Source: Fusobacterium mortiferum ATCC 9817 (GTDB taxonomy: Bacteria; Fusobacteriota; Fusobacteriia; Fusobacteriales; Fusobacteriaceae). Taken from it: a DNA stretch of 64,000 nt. The notes beneath the pieces are model-generated. The model was not told where the DNA came from, made no database searches, and was given only the letters and a program-made list of their open reading frames with translations. Below are positions 13,470 through 54,171 of the stretch, in pieces; positions within the stretch are counted from its first letter, which is position 1, and each line of letters starts with the position of its first letter. The position numbers and the translations under genes are program-made. The stretch lies in NCBI RefSeq assembly GCF_000158195.2, contig NZ_GL987994.1, positions 678,343 to 742,342 of the forward strand, written 5' to 3'.

Positions 13470-14219
13470 ATGGAAAAAAATAATGTAATGAATGGATTTA
13501 TACTTTTTAAAGACACAGTTTGTAATTTTGATGAGATTAAGAAAAATTTAAAATCTGATTGGAATATTGAGATGAATGGAGAGATAAAAGAAGAAGCAAC
13601 TGTTTTTAATATTGGAAATACTATGGTAGCTCTATCTTTTATACCAGCTCCTGTACCGAATGGAGAGGCAGAAGCTAATGCTAAAAATAATATCTTCTGG
13701 GAAGATGGAGTTAAGAAAACTTCTGAACATCAAGCACAGATGATAGTAGCTGTAACAGGTGGAAAAGATGCAGTAAAAAGTTCTAAACTTTTTGTAAAAG
13801 TAGCTTCGAGTATTTTGAAGTTAGAAAATACAATAGGAATTTATAAGTATCCAACTGTAATTCCAAGTGATATGTATATTGAAGTTGCTGAAGAGTTAAA
13901 AGAGGATTCTTTCCCAGTGCTAGATGTGGTATATATTGGAATGTATAGAAGTGATAATGGAATCTGTGGATATACAGAGGGATTAAAATATTTTGGTAAA
14001 AAAGAGATAGAGGTAATAGACACTGATGTAGAAGTGTTTGAGTTGTATGAGTTTTTAATAGATATAGCTAACTATGTAATAACTTGTGATGTAAAATTAA
14101 ATGATGGAGAAACAATAGGATTTTCAGCTGAACAAAAACTTCCTATAACTGTAACTAAGGGAGTAGTATTTGAAGAGGATACTATTAAGATAGAGTTTAA
14201 TAATAGTAATAAAAATTAA
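13470..14219 (+). CDS. DUF4261 domain protein
   Basis: 249 residues. The N-terminal region GFILFKDTVCNFDEIKKNLKSDW, the middle VALSFIPAPVPNGEAEANAKNNIFW and HQAQMIVAVTGG, and the later FELYEFLIDIANYVI fit the DUF4261 family. No signal peptide or membrane helix. DUF4261 proteins are frequent neighbours of SUFU, DUF2004 and DMP19-like genes; no reaction is known. Ribosome site GGAGG before ATG 13470. Confidence 0.75.
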   Translation: MEKNNVMNGFILFKDTVCNFDEIKKNLKSDWNIEMNGEIKEEATVFNIGNTMVALSFIPAPVPNGEAEANAKNNIFWEDGVKKTSEHQAQMIVAVTGGKDAVKSSKLFVKVASSILKLENTIGIYKYPTVIPSDMYIEVAEELKEDSFPVLDVVYIGMYRSDNGICGYTEGLKYFGKKEIEVIDTDVEVFELYEFLIDIANYVITCDVKLNDGETIGFSAEQKLPITVTKGVVFEEDTIKIEFNNSNKN

Positions 14220-19457: not shown

Positions 19458-19509
19458 AGATATAGACTCCAATAGAGTAAATATCCTTGTCCTCGCAAGA
19501 TATTTTAAA

Positions 19510-19680
19510 ATAATGTATCAAGGCTGGTCTCCTGACTTAGCTTCAATTTACTCAGTAACCTTCCCAACAGAGTCAGTGGCATAACTACCTTTCATCAGCA
19601 ACACAGTGGCGGGACCGTGGAGGAATAAAACCTCTCTTCCCAATTAATCTCAAAAGAGAACCTCTAACATATATTTCATC
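19510..19680 (-). promoter_or_regulatory. Cobalamin riboswitch upstream of cbiK
   Basis: On the minus strand the conserved core CGCCACTG (+ strand CAGTGGCG at 19605-19612) is followed by the B12-box AAGTCAGGAGACCAGCC (+ strand 19522-19538), with GGAAGGTTACTGAG between. These are the standard landmarks of the AdoCbl-class aptamer. Binding of cobalamin should reduce cbiK expression through the downstream terminator. Confidence 0.93.
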
Positions 19681-48322: not shown

Positions 48323-48351
48323 TTGAAAAAAACTGAAAACTATGATAGAAT
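48323..48351 (+). promoter_or_regulatory. Promoter of the pyrimidine operon
   Basis: TTGAAA at 48323-48328, 17-base spacer, TAGAAT at 48346-48351 (with TGA before it). Start near 48358. Confidence 0.78.
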
Positions 48352-48387
48352 AGCAAAGATATATGTAGAAAGTAAGGAGGAGTAGAG

Positions 48388-48510
48388 ATGAGAAATTTTA
48401 TAGATAAGCTAAAAGATATGCACTCTGTTTCTATTTTATTTTCTAATTATTTTATACTTTTTAAAAATTATATTATTAAAGATATCAAAGGAATGTTAAC
48501 TCTCTTTTAA
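48388..48510 (+). CDS. pyr leader peptide (pyrL-like)
   Basis: 40 residues, ATG 48388 with AAGGAGGAG upstream. It begins MRNFIDKLKDMHSV and then uses U-rich codons (Ile, Leu, Phe, Asn, Tyr) across 48421-48480. Its stop TAA (48508-48510) lies inside the attenuator hairpin. This is the geometry of the E. coli pyrBI leader: when UTP is low, polymerase pauses in the U-rich stretch, the ribosome catches up and blocks the terminator. A regulatory peptide rather than a functional product. Confidence 0.75.
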   Translation: MRNFIDKLKDMHSVSILFSNYFILFKNYIIKDIKGMLTLF

Positions 48511-48534
48511 AAAGAGGGACTCATTCCTTTTTTT
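48487..48534 (+). terminator. Attenuator in front of pyrB
   Basis: AAAGGAATG (48487-48495) pairs with CATTCCTTT (48522-48530), with inner stem CTCTTTT/AAAAGAG, then TTTTTTT. It ends transcription before pyrB unless a translating ribosome covers the left arm. Confidence 0.85.
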
Positions 48535-48575: not shown

Positions 48576-49643
48576 ATGAAAGATTTCATATCTATTAAAG
48601 ATTTAACAAAAGAAGAGATATTAGAAGTATTAGAAGTAGCAAATGAACTTTCACAAAAACCAGAAGCAGAGTTAGCAAAGGGGAAAATAGTAGGAAGTTT
48701 ATTCTTTGAACCTTCAACAAGAACAAGATTATCATTTACATCAGCAGCTTATAGATTAGGAGCACAAGTTTTAGGATTTGATTCTCCAGATGCTACTTCA
48801 TTAAAAAAAGGGGAGTCTTTAAGAGATACTATAAAAATGGTAGAGGCTTACTCTGATATAATAGTTATGAGACACTATATAGAGGGAGCAGCAAAATTCG
48901 CTTCTGAAATTTCTAAAAATCCTGTTATCAATGCTGGAGATGGAGCAAATGAACACCCTAGCCAAACTCTTTTAGACTTATTTACAATAAAAAAAGAGAT
49001 TGGAAGAATTGAAAATATTAAAATAGCTTTTGTAGGAGATTTAAAATATGGAAGAACTGTACACTCTCTTACTAAAGCATTAGAGATGTTTGGTGGAGAG
49101 TTTTATTTCGTAGCTCCAGAATCAATACAAATACCAGAGTACATCACTAAAGAGTTAGATGAAAAAGGAATGAAATACCATATCTGTTCTGAGTATGAGC
49201 CAATATTAAAAGAGATAGATGTACTTTATATGACAAGAATTCAAAGAGAAAGATTTGATGATATAGAGGAGTATAATAAAGTAAGTGGAGTTTACAAAAT
49301 ATCTAAGGATACTATATTAAATAAGTGTCAAGAGCATATGATAATATTACATCCACTACCAAGAGTAGATGAGATAAATATAGATTTAGATGATACAAAG
49401 CACGCACTATACTTTAAACAAGCAGCAAATGGAGTTCCTACAAGAGAGGCTATGTATGCTTTAGCACTAGGATTAAAAAATTCCACTGCTCCTAGAAAAG
49501 AGGAGAAAGAAGAAGTAGAAGAGCATTTCTTAACTGTTTGTAAAAATCCTAAGTGTGTAACTCACTTTGAAGAGACAGAAAATAAAGTAGTAGTAAAAGA
49601 TTATGGAAAATTCTGTTACTATTGTGGTAAAGAGATAAAATAG
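48576..49643 (+). CDS. pyrB: Aspartate carbamoyltransferase with fused PyrI-type zinc domain
   Basis: 355 residues. Residues 1-~305 are the catalytic chain: FFEPSTRTRLSFTSAAYRLG (carbamoyl-phosphate), KKGESLRDTIKM, MRHYIEGAA, GDGANEHPSQTLLDL, GDLKYGRTVHSL, and HPLPRVDEI. Residues ~309-355 are a PyrI-like zinc finger with cysteines at 322, 327, 347 and 350 (C-x4-C-x19-C-x2-C). The nucleotide-binding allosteric part of PyrI is absent. It makes N-carbamoyl-aspartate, the first committed step of pyrimidine synthesis. No separate pyrI is present. Confidence 0.95.
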   Translation: MKDFISIKDLTKEEILEVLEVANELSQKPEAELAKGKIVGSLFFEPSTRTRLSFTSAAYRLGAQVLGFDSPDATSLKKGESLRDTIKMVEAYSDIIVMRHYIEGAAKFASEISKNPVINAGDGANEHPSQTLLDLFTIKKEIGRIENIKIAFVGDLKYGRTVHSLTKALEMFGGEFYFVAPESIQIPEYITKELDEKGMKYHICSEYEPILKEIDVLYMTRIQRERFDDIEEYNKVSGVYKISKDTILNKCQEHMIILHPLPRVDEINIDLDDTKHALYFKQAANGVPTREAMYALALGLKNSTAPRKEEKEEVEEHFLTVCKNPKCVTHFEETENKVVVKDYGKFCYYCGKEIK

Positions 49644-49670
49644 TTAATTTATATAAATTTGGGAGGAGAA

Positions 49671-50477
49671 ATGTTTTTAGAAAATTGTGAAATTTTAGAA
49701 AACAAATTAGTTGCTGGACACAACTACCTTATGAAAGTAAAAGGAGATAAAACAGTAAAAGCTGCTAAAGCTGGACAGTTTTATATGTTACAATGTAAAA
49801 ATGGTGTATATTTTTTAAGAAGACCTATCAGCTTACATTATGCAGATAAAGAGAATAATATTTTAGAGTTTTATTATGAGATAAAAGGTGGAGGAACTAA
49901 AGATTTAGCCTCTATGAAAGCTGGAGAGATAATAAATATTCAAGGACCACTTGGAACAGGATTTACAACAGAAATCTCTGGGAAAGAGTTATTAGTAGTA
50001 GGTGGAGGAATGGGAATGGCTCCAATGAAACTATTAATAGAAGTTTTATCTAAAAATAATAAAGTTACTTTTATAGCAGGTGGAAGAAACAGAGAAGCTA
50101 TGGAGATAATGTCAAATTTCAATCTTGATGGAATAGAGAACTATATTACAACTGATGATGGTTCTGTAGGAATACATGGAAATGTTATAGTTAAAATGGA
50201 AGAATTAATGAAAGCTAAAAAATATGATATGGTATTTACTTGTGGACCACAAAAAATGATGGAAGCAGTTGCAAAAACAGCTAAGAAATTTGAAACTAAG
50301 TGTGAAATTTCATTGGAAGCTAGAATGGCTTGTGGAGTAAAAGCTTGTGTTGGTTGTTCAATCAAAACAAAATTTGGAATGAAAAAAGTATGTCATGATG
50401 GACCTGTTTTTGATTCTGAAACTATTGTAGACTTTGACCCAGTTGTAGAAAAAACTGAAACTTGTTGTGGAAATTAA
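49671..50477 (+). CDS. pyrK: Dihydroorotate dehydrogenase electron-transfer subunit PyrK
   Basis: 268 residues from ATG 49671 (GGGAGGAG just before). FAD-binding RRPISLHYADKENNILEFYYEIKGGGT, NAD-binding VVGGGMGMAPMKLL, and a C-terminal [2Fe-2S] site ARMACGVKACVGCSIKT plus KVCHDGPVF. It passes electrons from dihydroorotate via PyrD to NAD+. Overlaps nothing; pyrD follows 16 bases later. Confidence 0.95.
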   Translation: MFLENCEILENKLVAGHNYLMKVKGDKTVKAAKAGQFYMLQCKNGVYFLRRPISLHYADKENNILEFYYEIKGGGTKDLASMKAGEIINIQGPLGTGFTTEISGKELLVVGGGMGMAPMKLLIEVLSKNNKVTFIAGGRNREAMEIMSNFNLDGIENYITTDDGSVGIHGNVIVKMEELMKAKKYDMVFTCGPQKMMEAVAKTAKKFETKCEISLEARMACGVKACVGCSIKTKFGMKKVCHDGPVFDSETIVDFDPVVEKTETCCGN

Positions 50478-50493
50478 TTTGTTGGAGGAAAAG

Positions 50494-51411
50494 ATGAACA
50501 GATTACAAACTAAATTTTTAGGTGTAGATTTTAAAAATCCAATAGTAACTTCTTCTGGTTGTTTTGGATTTGGAATGGAATATAAAGAATATTTTGACCC
50601 AAATATATTAGGTGGAATAGGAATAAAAGGGCTTACTGTAGAGCCAAGAGATGGAAACTATGGTACAAGAATAGCTGAAACTCCTGCTGGAATGTTAAAC
50701 TGTGTAGGACTTGAAAATCCTGGAATAGATTATTTTGAATCTCACATTTTACCAGAGATGAAAGCTCAAGGAATAACTACAAATATAATAGCTAATATCA
50801 ATGGAAAAACTGTAGAGGAGTATGTTGAAATAGCAAAAAGAGTAGATAAAATTCCTGAAATAGCAGTAGTAGAGTTAAATATCTCTTGTCCAAATGTAAA
50901 AGATGGAGGTATGGCTTTTGGAGCTAATCCAGAGGTAGCTGCTAGAGTAACAAGAGAGGTAAGAAAAGTTACATCTAAACCATTAGTAGTAAAACTTTCT
51001 CCCAATGTTACTGATATAGCTAGTATAGCTAAAATAGTAGAGGAAAATGGAGCAGATGCAGTATCTCTTATCAATACTTTACTTGGAATGGTAATAGATA
51101 TAAGAACTAAAAAACCAGTGTTAGGAAATACTTTTGGAGGATTTTCTGGACCAGCTGTAAAACCTGTAGCTGTAAGAATGGTTTATCAAGTATATAAAGC
51201 TGTAAATATTCCTATTATTGGAATGGGAGGAATAGCTTCAGTAGAAGATGCTCTTGAGTTTATAATGGCTGGAGCTTCTATGATATCAATAGGTTCAGCT
51301 ATTTTCTCTAATCCTATGTTAGCTGTAGAAATAGCTGAGGGATTACAAAAATATTGTGAAGAGAATGGATTTGAAAATATAAGTGAGTTAGTAGGGGCAG
51401 CTCACAGATAA
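50494..51411 (+). CDS. pyrD: Dihydroorotate dehydrogenase, class 1B, catalytic subunit
   Basis: 305 residues from ATG 50494, placed by GGAGGAA; a longer frame starts inside pyrK. FMN/substrate motifs: FKNPIVTSSGCFGFG, GMLNCVGLENPG, ELNISCPNVKDGG with the class 1B active-site Cys, and NTLLGMVIDIRTKKP, GMGGIASVEDALEFIMAGA. Works with PyrK. A palindromic repeat follows instead of the next gene. Confidence 0.96.
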   Translation: MNRLQTKFLGVDFKNPIVTSSGCFGFGMEYKEYFDPNILGGIGIKGLTVEPRDGNYGTRIAETPAGMLNCVGLENPGIDYFESHILPEMKAQGITTNIIANINGKTVEEYVEIAKRVDKIPEIAVVELNISCPNVKDGGMAFGANPEVAARVTREVRKVTSKPLVVKLSPNVTDIASIAKIVEENGADAVSLINTLLGMVIDIRTKKPVLGNTFGGFSGPAVKPVAVRMVYQVYKAVNIPIIGMGGIASVEDALEFIMAGASMISIGSAIFSNPMLAVEIAEGLQKYCEENGFENISELVGAAHR

Positions 51412-51599: not shown

Positions 51600-51618
51600 A
51601 AAAGTGAAAGGAGATTTT

Positions 51619-52347
51619 ATGTATAGTGCTAAGGATAGAATGATAATAGCTTTGGATTTCCCAACAGCTGACCAAGCAAAAGAGCTTGTAGAAAAAATTG
51701 GAGATGGAGCAACTTTTTATAAAGTTGGATTAGAACTTTTCTTAAACTCTAAAGGAGAGATAATAGAGTATCTTTCTGCTAAAGGGAAAAAAGTTTTCTT
51801 GGATTTAAAATTCCACGATATTCCAAATACAACAGCTATGGCTTCTGTGTTTGCTGCTAAGCAAAATGTATTTATGTTCAATGTACATGCTAGTGGTGGA
51901 AGAAAGATGATGACTAAAGTTGCAGAAGAGGTTAAAAAAATAAATCAAGATAACCTTGTAATAGGAGTTACAGTTTTAACAAGTTTATCAGTAGAAGATG
52001 TAGAGGAGACTTTCCAATCAAAACTTTCTCTTGCTGATTTAGCTTTAAACTGGGCAAAACTTGTAAAAACATCTGGATTAGATGGAGTAGTATGTTCTCC
52101 ATGGGAAGCTAAACTTATAAAAGATACTTGTGGAAAAGATTTCAAAACTGTGTGTCCAGGAGTAAGACCAAAATGGTCAGCTACAAATGACCAAGAGAGA
52201 ATAATGACTCCAAAAGATGCAATAATAAATGGTTGTGATTTCTTAGTAGTAGGTAGACCAATTACTAAAAATGAAGACCCAGCTAAAGCAGCACAAATGG
52301 TAGAGGCAGAAATCTTAGAAGGAATGAAAGAGGCAGGATTATGCTAA
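51619..52347 (+). CDS. pyrF: Orotidine-5'-phosphate decarboxylase
   Basis: 242 residues from ATG 51619; GAAAGGAG directly precedes it, so the in-frame GTG at 51604 is not the start. Active site FLDLKFHDIPNTTAMA with the Lys/Asp network, GVVCSPWEAKLIK, VCPGVRPKW, and FLVVGRPIT phosphate loop. Removes CO2 from OMP to make UMP. Its stop overlaps the pyrC start. Confidence 0.96.
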   Translation: MYSAKDRMIIALDFPTADQAKELVEKIGDGATFYKVGLELFLNSKGEIIEYLSAKGKKVFLDLKFHDIPNTTAMASVFAAKQNVFMFNVHASGGRKMMTKVAEEVKKINQDNLVIGVTVLTSLSVEDVEETFQSKLSLADLALNWAKLVKTSGLDGVVCSPWEAKLIKDTCGKDFKTVCPGVRPKWSATNDQERIMTPKDAIINGCDFLVVGRPITKNEDPAKAAQMVEAEILEGMKEAGLC

Positions 52348-53555
52348 TAAAAAACTGTAGAATTCTAATTGATGGAGTAGAAAAAGTTACAGATATATTA
52401 ACAGCAGATGGGAAAATAATAGAGATATCGGAAAATATTCCAGAAGGAAGATTAGAGGTAGTAGATGCTAAAGGAAAATGGGTAATTCCTGGAGTGGTAG
52501 ATGCTCATTGTCATATGAGAGACCCAGGACTTTCTCATAAAGAGGATTTTATGACTGGAAGTATGGCTTGTGCTAGAGGTGGAGTTACTACATTTATTGA
52601 TATGCCAAATACAATACCAGCTGTAACTACTTCTGAAATATTTGAAGAAAAAAGAGCTATGATGGTTGGAAAATCATATGTAGACTATGGATTTAATTTT
52701 GGTGGAAGTAGAAACGATAACAGTGAAGAGATAAAAAAAGTAATAGATAAGGTTGCTTCTACAAAGATATTTTTAAATATGTCTACTGGAGATATGTTAA
52801 TAACAGAAGATAGTGTTATAGAAAATATTTTTAGAGAATCAAAAATTATATCTGTACATGCTGAAGAAGAGATGGTAGCCAAAGCTATTGAGCTTTGTGA
52901 AAAATATGATAAACCATTATATCTATGTCATCTATCTAAAGCTAGTGAAGCTAAGATGTTAAGAGAAGCAAAGGCTAAGGGATTAAAAGTTTACGGAGAA
53001 GTTACTCCACACCACCTTTTCTTAAATGTAGATGATGTAAATGCTGATGAGAGAAGTTCAATGTTACTTAGAATGAAGCCAGAATTAAAAACTAAAGAGG
53101 ATAATGAGGAGTTATGGAAAGCTCTTGCTGATGGAACTATTGATACAATAGGAACAGACCATGCACCTCATCTAATAGAGGAAAAATTAGCAAAACTTAC
53201 TTTTGGTATACCTGGAGTAGAAAACTCACTTGAGATGATGCTGAAAGGTGTAGATGAAGGGAAAATCTCAATGGCAAGACTCATTGAGGTAATGTGTACA
53301 AAACCAGCTGAAATTTTTAATATAGCAAATAAAGGAAAAATTCAAGTTGGATATGATGCTGATTTAGTAATAATAGATAGAGAAGATAAGTCAGCTATAA
53401 AAGATGATGATGTAATAACTAAAGCAAATTGGACACCATATGAAAAATTTAATAGAGGTGGAAGAGTTGTTACAACAATTTTAAGAGGTCAAATAGTATA
53501 TTCAAATAAAGAGTTTTATGGAAAATATGGGAGGGAAATTAATTATCATGAGTAG
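52341..53555 (+). CDS. pyrC: Dihydroorotase, class I
   Basis: 404 residues. Metal site VDAHCHMRDPGLSHKEDF (HxH), FIDMPNTIPAV, VHAEEE, LCHLSKASEA, TPHHLFL, TDHAPH with catalytic Asp, and FNIANKGKIQVGYDADLVI. Interconverts carbamoyl-aspartate and dihydroorotate. It overlaps pyrF by 7 bases and pyrE by 8, so translation is coupled. Confidence 0.96.
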   Translation: MLIKNCRILIDGVEKVTDILTADGKIIEISENIPEGRLEVVDAKGKWVIPGVVDAHCHMRDPGLSHKEDFMTGSMACARGGVTTFIDMPNTIPAVTTSEIFEEKRAMMVGKSYVDYGFNFGGSRNDNSEEIKKVIDKVASTKIFLNMSTGDMLITEDSVIENIFRESKIISVHAEEEMVAKAIELCEKYDKPLYLCHLSKASEAKMLREAKAKGLKVYGEVTPHHLFLNVDDVNADERSSMLLRMKPELKTKEDNEELWKALADGTIDTIGTDHAPHLIEEKLAKLTFGIPGVENSLEMMLKGVDEGKISMARLIEVMCTKPAEIFNIANKGKIQVGYDADLVIIDREDKSAIKDDDVITKANWTPYEKFNRGGRVVTTILRGQIVYSNKEFYGKYGREINYHE

Positions 53556-54171
53556 AGCAAAAGATGTAGCAAAATCATTATTAAGCACAGGAGCAGTAAA
53601 ATTAAATGTAAAGGAACCATTTACATTTGTATCTGGAATCAAAAGTCCAATCTATTGTGACAATAGAAAAATGATAGGATATCCTGTTGAAAGACAAGTA
53701 GTAGTAGATGAGTTTATAAAAAAATTATCTGAAAAAGATTTTGATGTAGTAGCAGGAACAGCAACTGCTGGAATTCCTTGGGCAGCTTTTATAGCACAAC
53801 TGATGAATAAACCAATGAGTTATATAAGAGGAGAGAAAAAAGCTCACGGAGCAGGAAGACAAATAGAAGGAGCAGATTTTGAAGGAAAAAAAGTTATTGT
53901 AATTGAAGACTTAATCTCTACTGGGGGAAGCTCAATAAAAGCTGTTGAAGCTGCTAGAAATGAAGGAGCTAAAGAAGTAGAAGTACTAGCTATCTTCTCT
54001 TATGAGTTTGATAAAGCTTATAAAAACTTTGGAGAAAAAAATATCAAATGGGAAACTTTATCTAACTTCACAGCATTACTTGAATTAGCAAAAGAAGAAA
54101 AATATTTAACTGAAGAGGAAGCTGAAATAGCTGCTTCTTGGAATAAAAATACAGATACTTGGGGAAGATAG
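53548..54171 (+). CDS. pyrE: Orotate phosphoribosyltransferase
   Basis: 207 residues from ATG 53548 (GGGAGGG upstream, spacing 12). FTFVSGIKSPIYCDNRKM, GTATAGIPWAAFIAQ, MSYIRGEKKAHG, and PRPP loop VIVIEDLISTGGSSIKA. Converts orotate and PRPP to OMP. Last gene of the operon. No clear terminator seen before the next promoter. Confidence 0.96.
   Translation: MSRAKDVAKSLLSTGAVKLNVKEPFTFVSGIKSPIYCDNRKMIGYPVERQVVVDEFIKKLSEKDFDVVAGTATAGIPWAAFIAQLMNKPMSYIRGEKKAHGAGRQIEGADFEGKKVIVIEDLISTGGSSIKAVEAARNEGAKEVEVLAIFSYEFDKAYKNFGEKNIKWETLSNFTALLELAKEEKYLTEEEAEIAASWNKNTDTWGR

Follow-up and report, generated by a model that had tools for sequence, protein, structure and literature searches.

The systems close to the one described here include two of E. 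coli. At rph-pyrE, a pyr gene is controlled by a ribosome on an upstream ORF that ends near a terminator, together with UTP-dependent pausing; the ORF in question is rph, a complete gene, unlike the dedicated leader peptide considered below. At pyrBI, when UTP is abundant, the polymerase crosses a mostly U-requiring leader and terminates; when UTP is scarce, the coupled ribosome catches up with the polymerase and blocks the hairpin (PMC10135430; PMC5021804). Termination in B. subtilis has been reported to be unaffected by translation (PMC7819879). For Fusobacteria, no description of pyr attenuation was found in the literature searched, most subscription journals lying outside its coverage.

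We analysed a stretch of 64,000 nucleotides from Fusobacterium mortiferum ATCC 9817 (hereafter the window), in which a short leader precedes pyrB. Judged from its sequence, this leader is very probably a UTP-sensing, ribosome-coupled transcription attenuator of the pyrBI type. The features described below lie on the forward strand unless indicated. A consensus scan predicts a sigma-70-type promoter at 48323-48351, made of a TTGAAA box (48323-48328), a 17-nt spacer and an extended -10 element (TGATAGAAT; TAGAAT at 48346-48351 with the extended TG), which is kept in the closest relatives according to the alignment. Transcription is predicted to start a few nt after position 48351. The leader ORF is headed by a strong Shine-Dalgarno sequence (SD), AGGAGG (48375-48380), also kept in relatives, and runs over 40 codons at 48388-48510, from an ATG at 48388 to a TAA at 48508-48510, encoding the peptide MRNFIDKLKDMHSVSILFSNYFILFKNYIIKDIKGMLTLF. 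The ORF is U-rich: T content from the AUG to the hairpin amounts to 46% and reaches 75% in the richest 20 nt, as compared to a mean of 29.6% (sd 4.8) and a maximum of 44.4% in 99-nt segments of the coding sequences of the window. The intrinsic terminator (48487-48534) consists of a hairpin at 48487-48530, with a predicted energy of -17.2 kcal/mol, and a seven-T run at 48528-48534; its arms vary among related species with pairing retained in the alignment. The stop codon of the leader occupies positions 22-24 of the hairpin, and 45 nt separate the hairpin from the pyrB start at 48576. The sequence-only reading of this DNA, which had proposed a U-rich 40-codon leader ending within a strong terminator just before pyrB, is thus borne out in all its elements.

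The same architecture is seen at pyrBI (pyrL was read from NC_000913): a translated U-rich leader, of 44 codons in E. coli and 40 here, and, immediately ahead of pyrB, an intrinsic terminator that the ORF overlaps. The two leaders display no recognisable sequence homology. The fusobacterial stop codon is usually inside the hairpin, whereas that of pyrL lies 27 nt beyond it. E. coli has an additional control by reiterative transcription, with a T-run at the transcription start (AATTTG); no T-run follows the predicted -10 element of the window (TAGAATAGCAAAGATA), where the start position is itself a prediction. The pyrB leaders of Vibrio (L193, L209 and L243) likewise have an ORF that ends at the terminator before pyrB; their stop falls at hairpin +2, so that the stop position varies within this kind of device. 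Unlike the fusobacterial leaders, they are gammaproteobacterial and of higher GC content.

By analogy with E. coli, control would rest on UTP-dependent pausing, on coupling and on translation-dependent read-through. With plentiful UTP, the polymerase would cross the U-rich tract fast and ahead of any ribosome, the hairpin at 48487-48530 would fold, and transcription would end before pyrB. With scarce UTP, the polymerase would pause in the U-rich tract while a ribosome loads on the leader, catches up and runs into the terminator hairpin; since the path of the ribosome enters the hairpin, with the stop at its positions 22-24, the hairpin could not form and the whole pyr operon would be transcribed. 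Carbamoyl-phosphate synthase would come under the same control through a device of its own, located before carA.

The operon downstream comprises pyrB (aspartate carbamoyltransferase, 48576-49643; TIGR00670, 382.9 bits), pyrK (dihydroorotate dehydrogenase electron transfer subunit, 49659-50477; Pfam DHODB_Fe-S_bind and NAD_binding_1), pyrD (dihydroorotate dehydrogenase, 50467-51411; Pfam DHO_dh, 296 bits), pyrF (OMP decarboxylase, 51604-52347; Pfam OMPdecase), pyrC (52341-53555; Pfam Amidohydro_1, with dihydroorotase assigned from operon context) and pyrE (orotate phosphoribosyltransferase, 53518-54171; TIGR00336 above cut-off). For pyrK, pyrD, pyrF and pyrE the coordinates are those of the ORFs as listed; the listed pyrK ORF begins at a TTG, and an ATG is present at 49671. 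The device therefore stands before a whole pyr operon, as had been claimed from the sequence, and with six pathway genes downstream and another device at carA, the window genome differs from E. coli pyrBI. Note that the C-terminal tail of the window PyrB resembles the zinc-binding domain of PyrI (PF02748, a weak match of 21.4 bits, just below the cut-off of 23.4), and that Pfam finds no PyrI nucleotide-binding domain in this protein. In genera g6 and g8, and likewise in the greater part of family f4, the window PyrB is matched up to about residue 300, so these proteins seem to be without the fused tail. Elsewhere in the window, a cobalamin riboswitch is found at 19505-19679 on the reverse strand (Rfam RF00174, 94.3 bits).

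The leader ORF carries the marks of a translated sequence. Among related species, indels within the leader ORFs are of 3 or 6 nt, as compared to every length in the flanks; the lone 1-nt indel, located in the hairpin loop, shifts the stop codon, which still falls within the hairpin. Substitutions at codon positions 1, 2 and 3 number 414, 241 and 343, respectively, of 2622 sites each, position 2 being the least variable (the counts are taken over sequence pairs and hence are not independent). In-frame indels and codon position bias together indicate that the leader ORF is translated. Moreover, the leader ORFs are open up to the hairpin, as compared to 0.1-67% of dinucleotide shuffles, with a summed log10 p of -42 over 31 related leaders, a value overstated owing to relatedness and the choice of frame.

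These marks bear on two other readings of the leader. A riboswitch, or another leader RNA binding some unknown ligand with the ORF being incidental, would be in line with the whole leader folding somewhat better than its shuffles (z -2.2, in a fold that includes a helix between the SD and the U-tract). Against this, the leader matches no Rfam family, bears the signs of translation and, in contrast to an aptamer, can barely be aligned from one genus to another; we regard this reading as extremely unlikely. The ORF could otherwise be the gene of a small membrane peptide with its own terminator, pyrB being transcribed from another promoter: the peptides are indeed hydrophobic, and a small ORF with an SD and a terminator is what such a gene would look like. 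However, their sequence does not persist between genera, the stop is usually within the hairpin rather than ahead of it, and in many genera the ORF goes with whichever pyrimidine gene comes first, the carA copies of arginine operons being without it (see below), which makes this reading very unlikely.

A pyrBI-type attenuator further implies that U itself, rather than the encoded amino acids, is the signal. Other leaders contain 37-57% T from the AUG to the hairpin; along the pyrB and carA leaders, the T fraction per 10-nt bin is 0.42-0.62 from -80 to the hairpin, the 5' part being A-rich. For a fixed peptide, the carA leader of the window genome has more U than codon usage predicts (p 0.003), and the excess is marginal in its pyrB leader (p 0.05); an excess at fixed peptide favours U over amino acids as the signal. 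The alternative, in which amino-acid starvation would stall the ribosome at codons for Phe, Ile or Leu and so control the operon, draws on the composition of the peptides, with Phe at 15.8% vs 4.4% and Ile, Leu and Asn also enriched. These leaders show no codon run for any amino acid with a connection to the operon, Asp (3.0 vs 5.3) and Gln (0.9 vs 1.8) are depleted and Arg is not enriched, and Phe, Ile and Leu are not directly connected with the making of pyrimidines; the carA leader also has more U in its codons than its peptide calls for. Amino-acid attenuation of the classical type, moreover, needs an antiterminator. In the window leader, upstream pairing to the terminator arm is no better than in shuffles (z -0.1), and no upstream competitor for this arm was found across 31 leaders, with z near 0 in most. 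We thus give starvation-induced stalling very little chance.

The familiar pyr control in Gram-positive bacteria is attenuation by PyrR, in which the protein with UMP would stabilise an anti-antiterminator in the leader; like the pyrBI type, it attenuates pyr operons transcriptionally according to pyrimidine supply, and it apparently occurs within the same family, in genus g4. It requires, however, the PyrR protein and its binding loop, and both are missing here. No match to NF003549 was found anywhere in that genome, nor any above cut-off in the other leader-bearing genomes; matches above cut-off are confined to g4. The Pfam model for UPRTase was uninformative as a pyrR probe, a strong UPRTase being matched in every genome. 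The Rfam PyrR site (RF00515) was not detected at gathering score in the window, L001, L112, L013, L083 or L086, with L158 from g4, which scored above it, serving as positive control; L159 from the same genus remained below the threshold. The earlier remark that no PyrR-type stem was obvious here therefore holds under search, for the PyrR site and the antiterminator alike. With pyrR, its site and the antiterminator all absent, PyrR control of this operon is scarcely credible. The pyrBI logic stands on a translated U-rich leader, a terminator overlapped by the ORF, the lack of PyrR, the pyr operon downstream and conservation across Fusobacteriota, and it gives PyrR-less members of the phylum a plausible mechanism of pyrimidine control.

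In genus g4, by comparison, it looks as if one attenuator had naturally been replaced by another. Its PyrB is divergent (38% identity). In L158 and G026-G028, pyrR is followed by this divergent pyrB, with a hairpin immediately 5' of the latter; the AGGAGG that forms the SD of pyrB lies in the 3' arm of this hairpin. The arrangement resembles an overlapping terminator or a further control, acting on translation.

We surveyed the spread of the device, scored as present where an SD-led leader ORF runs up to or into an intrinsic terminator. Within the family, 49 of 55 genomes have it ahead of the gene that opens the pyrB operon, a count that includes some genomes scored by eye (G032, G035 and G037 among them). 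All pyrB-bearing genomes of genera g1, g2, g3, g5, g6, g8, g11 and g13 have it (40 genomes). In g14, g7 and g9 the operon reads carAB-pyrB, so that pyrB comes third, and the leader precedes carA instead; that of G043 was scored by eye, its stop lying just ahead of the hairpin. The stop codon is found 7 nt ahead of the hairpin in G034 and past it in G004, G013, G025 and G048. No leader was found in g4 (three genomes) or in g12 (three genomes), though pyrB is present in g12; in two of the latter (G049-G050), a terminator-like hairpin lies before pyrB with no leader ORF detected, and control of pyrB may differ there. Beyond the family, the device is present before pyrB in five genomes of family f4 (G065, G084-G086 and G089) and in G097, which belongs to a different family within the class, and most genomes of the Leptotrichia-like genus g21 are without it despite having pyrB. 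We infer that the ancestor of the class already had the device and that losses followed. In a scan of named genomes, the matches listed were mostly Bacteroidales and Gammaproteobacteria, and Cetobacterium sp. 2A (G013) and Propionigenium maris (G052) were the only Fusobacteriota among them.

Conservation of the leader in other Fusobacteria had been put forward as a check on the initial claim, and it holds in part: the ORF, its U-richness and the position of its stop are conserved between genera, and the peptide sequence is not. This divergence is compatible with a pyrBI-type device, whose mechanism needs precisely the three features that are conserved.

Where carAB is separate, a leader was found before carA in most genomes examined, and several of these fusobacterial leaders have their stop at or just before the hairpin. 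In the window genome, carA (G000:C8:641873) is preceded by a leader with an ORF of 44 codons, 52% T and a hairpin at G000:C8:641789-641820. When carA instead lies behind argJ in arginine operons, the leader is absent in all five cases (G039, G040, G041, G042 and G043; ArgJ was identified by NCBIfam in G041, and the proteins in this place in the remaining four genomes resemble it). Second carA copies in G007, G008 and G010 do have a leader, and argJ is not upstream of them in the stretch read. On sequence grounds, the device appears to track whichever pyrimidine gene leads the operon. The case is broader than first claimed, extending to carA as well as pyrB and to much of the Fusobacteriota. 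Outside Gammaproteobacteria, pyrBI logic would here serve the regulon as a whole, at pyrB and at carA, and the arginine-type carA and the PyrR genus, both without the device, provide natural controls. In G002, of the same genus, pyrB was not seen and carA retains a U-rich leader and terminator; this genome may belong to a pyrimidine auxotroph or contain an assembly gap.

The U-tract may have a further function. In the predicted fold of the window leader, it is paired with the leader SD, and the segment of the tract best complementary to the SD region, a candidate anti-SD at 48422-48446, forms with it a duplex of -19.5 kcal/mol (z -3.6 vs dinucleotide shuffles). Over 31 leaders, the complementarity to the SD averages z -1.60 (se 0.19) against dinucleotide-shuffled tracts and -1.65 (se 0.17) against codon-shuffled ones, as compared to 0.00 (se 0.06) for a set of 300 ordinary genes with an SD from the window genome, T-rich ones included. 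The predicted accessibility of the window SD is 0.91 as long as the tract has not been transcribed and drops to 0.05 once it has; direct accessibility z-scores average just -0.6, and twelve further carA leaders, taken out-of-sample, gave a weaker signal (-0.74, se 0.38). The pairing is thus a suggestive refinement, with the stronger signal at pyrB and the weaker one at carA. The three Vibrio leaders show nothing systematic (z 0.2, -1.6 and -0.2), and in E. coli pyrL the pairing is present in the minimum-energy fold with z +0.6, not above shuffles, so that we do not claim it for E. coli. We tentatively propose, as a possibility that we hold to be somewhat doubtful, that the U-tract has a triple role, as UTP sensor for the polymerase, as coding sequence and as anti-Shine-Dalgarno timer. 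Once transcribed, the tract would pair with the leader SD and end ribosome loading, so that the SD would be open long enough for loading only if the polymerase stalls within the tract; if true, such a timer would give a sharper switch than coupling could by itself.

A scan for similar devices covered both strands over 1.95 of the 2.67 Mb of the window genome, searching for hairpins before T-runs with SD-led ORFs of 20-80 codons that stop inside, and yielded 1100 terminator-like hairpins and 37 ORF rows. Only the carA and pyrB leaders survive the combined thresholds (35-60 codons, 5 or more matches in the SD, a T content of 40% or higher and a stop within the hairpin); as these thresholds were fixed after the two cases were known, the scan is a description and not a formal test. 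Stricter hairpin criteria applied to the complete contig agree with this outcome, and no leader was found before the UPRTase gene or the six uracil/xanthine permease genes of the window genome. On contig C2 of the same genome, four near-identical hairpins (at 13516, 70389, 496455 and 706095), each with the SD-led ORF MCFKSMYISFCIFCLVTILYKKRELSKAFF stopping inside, are probably part of a repeated element.
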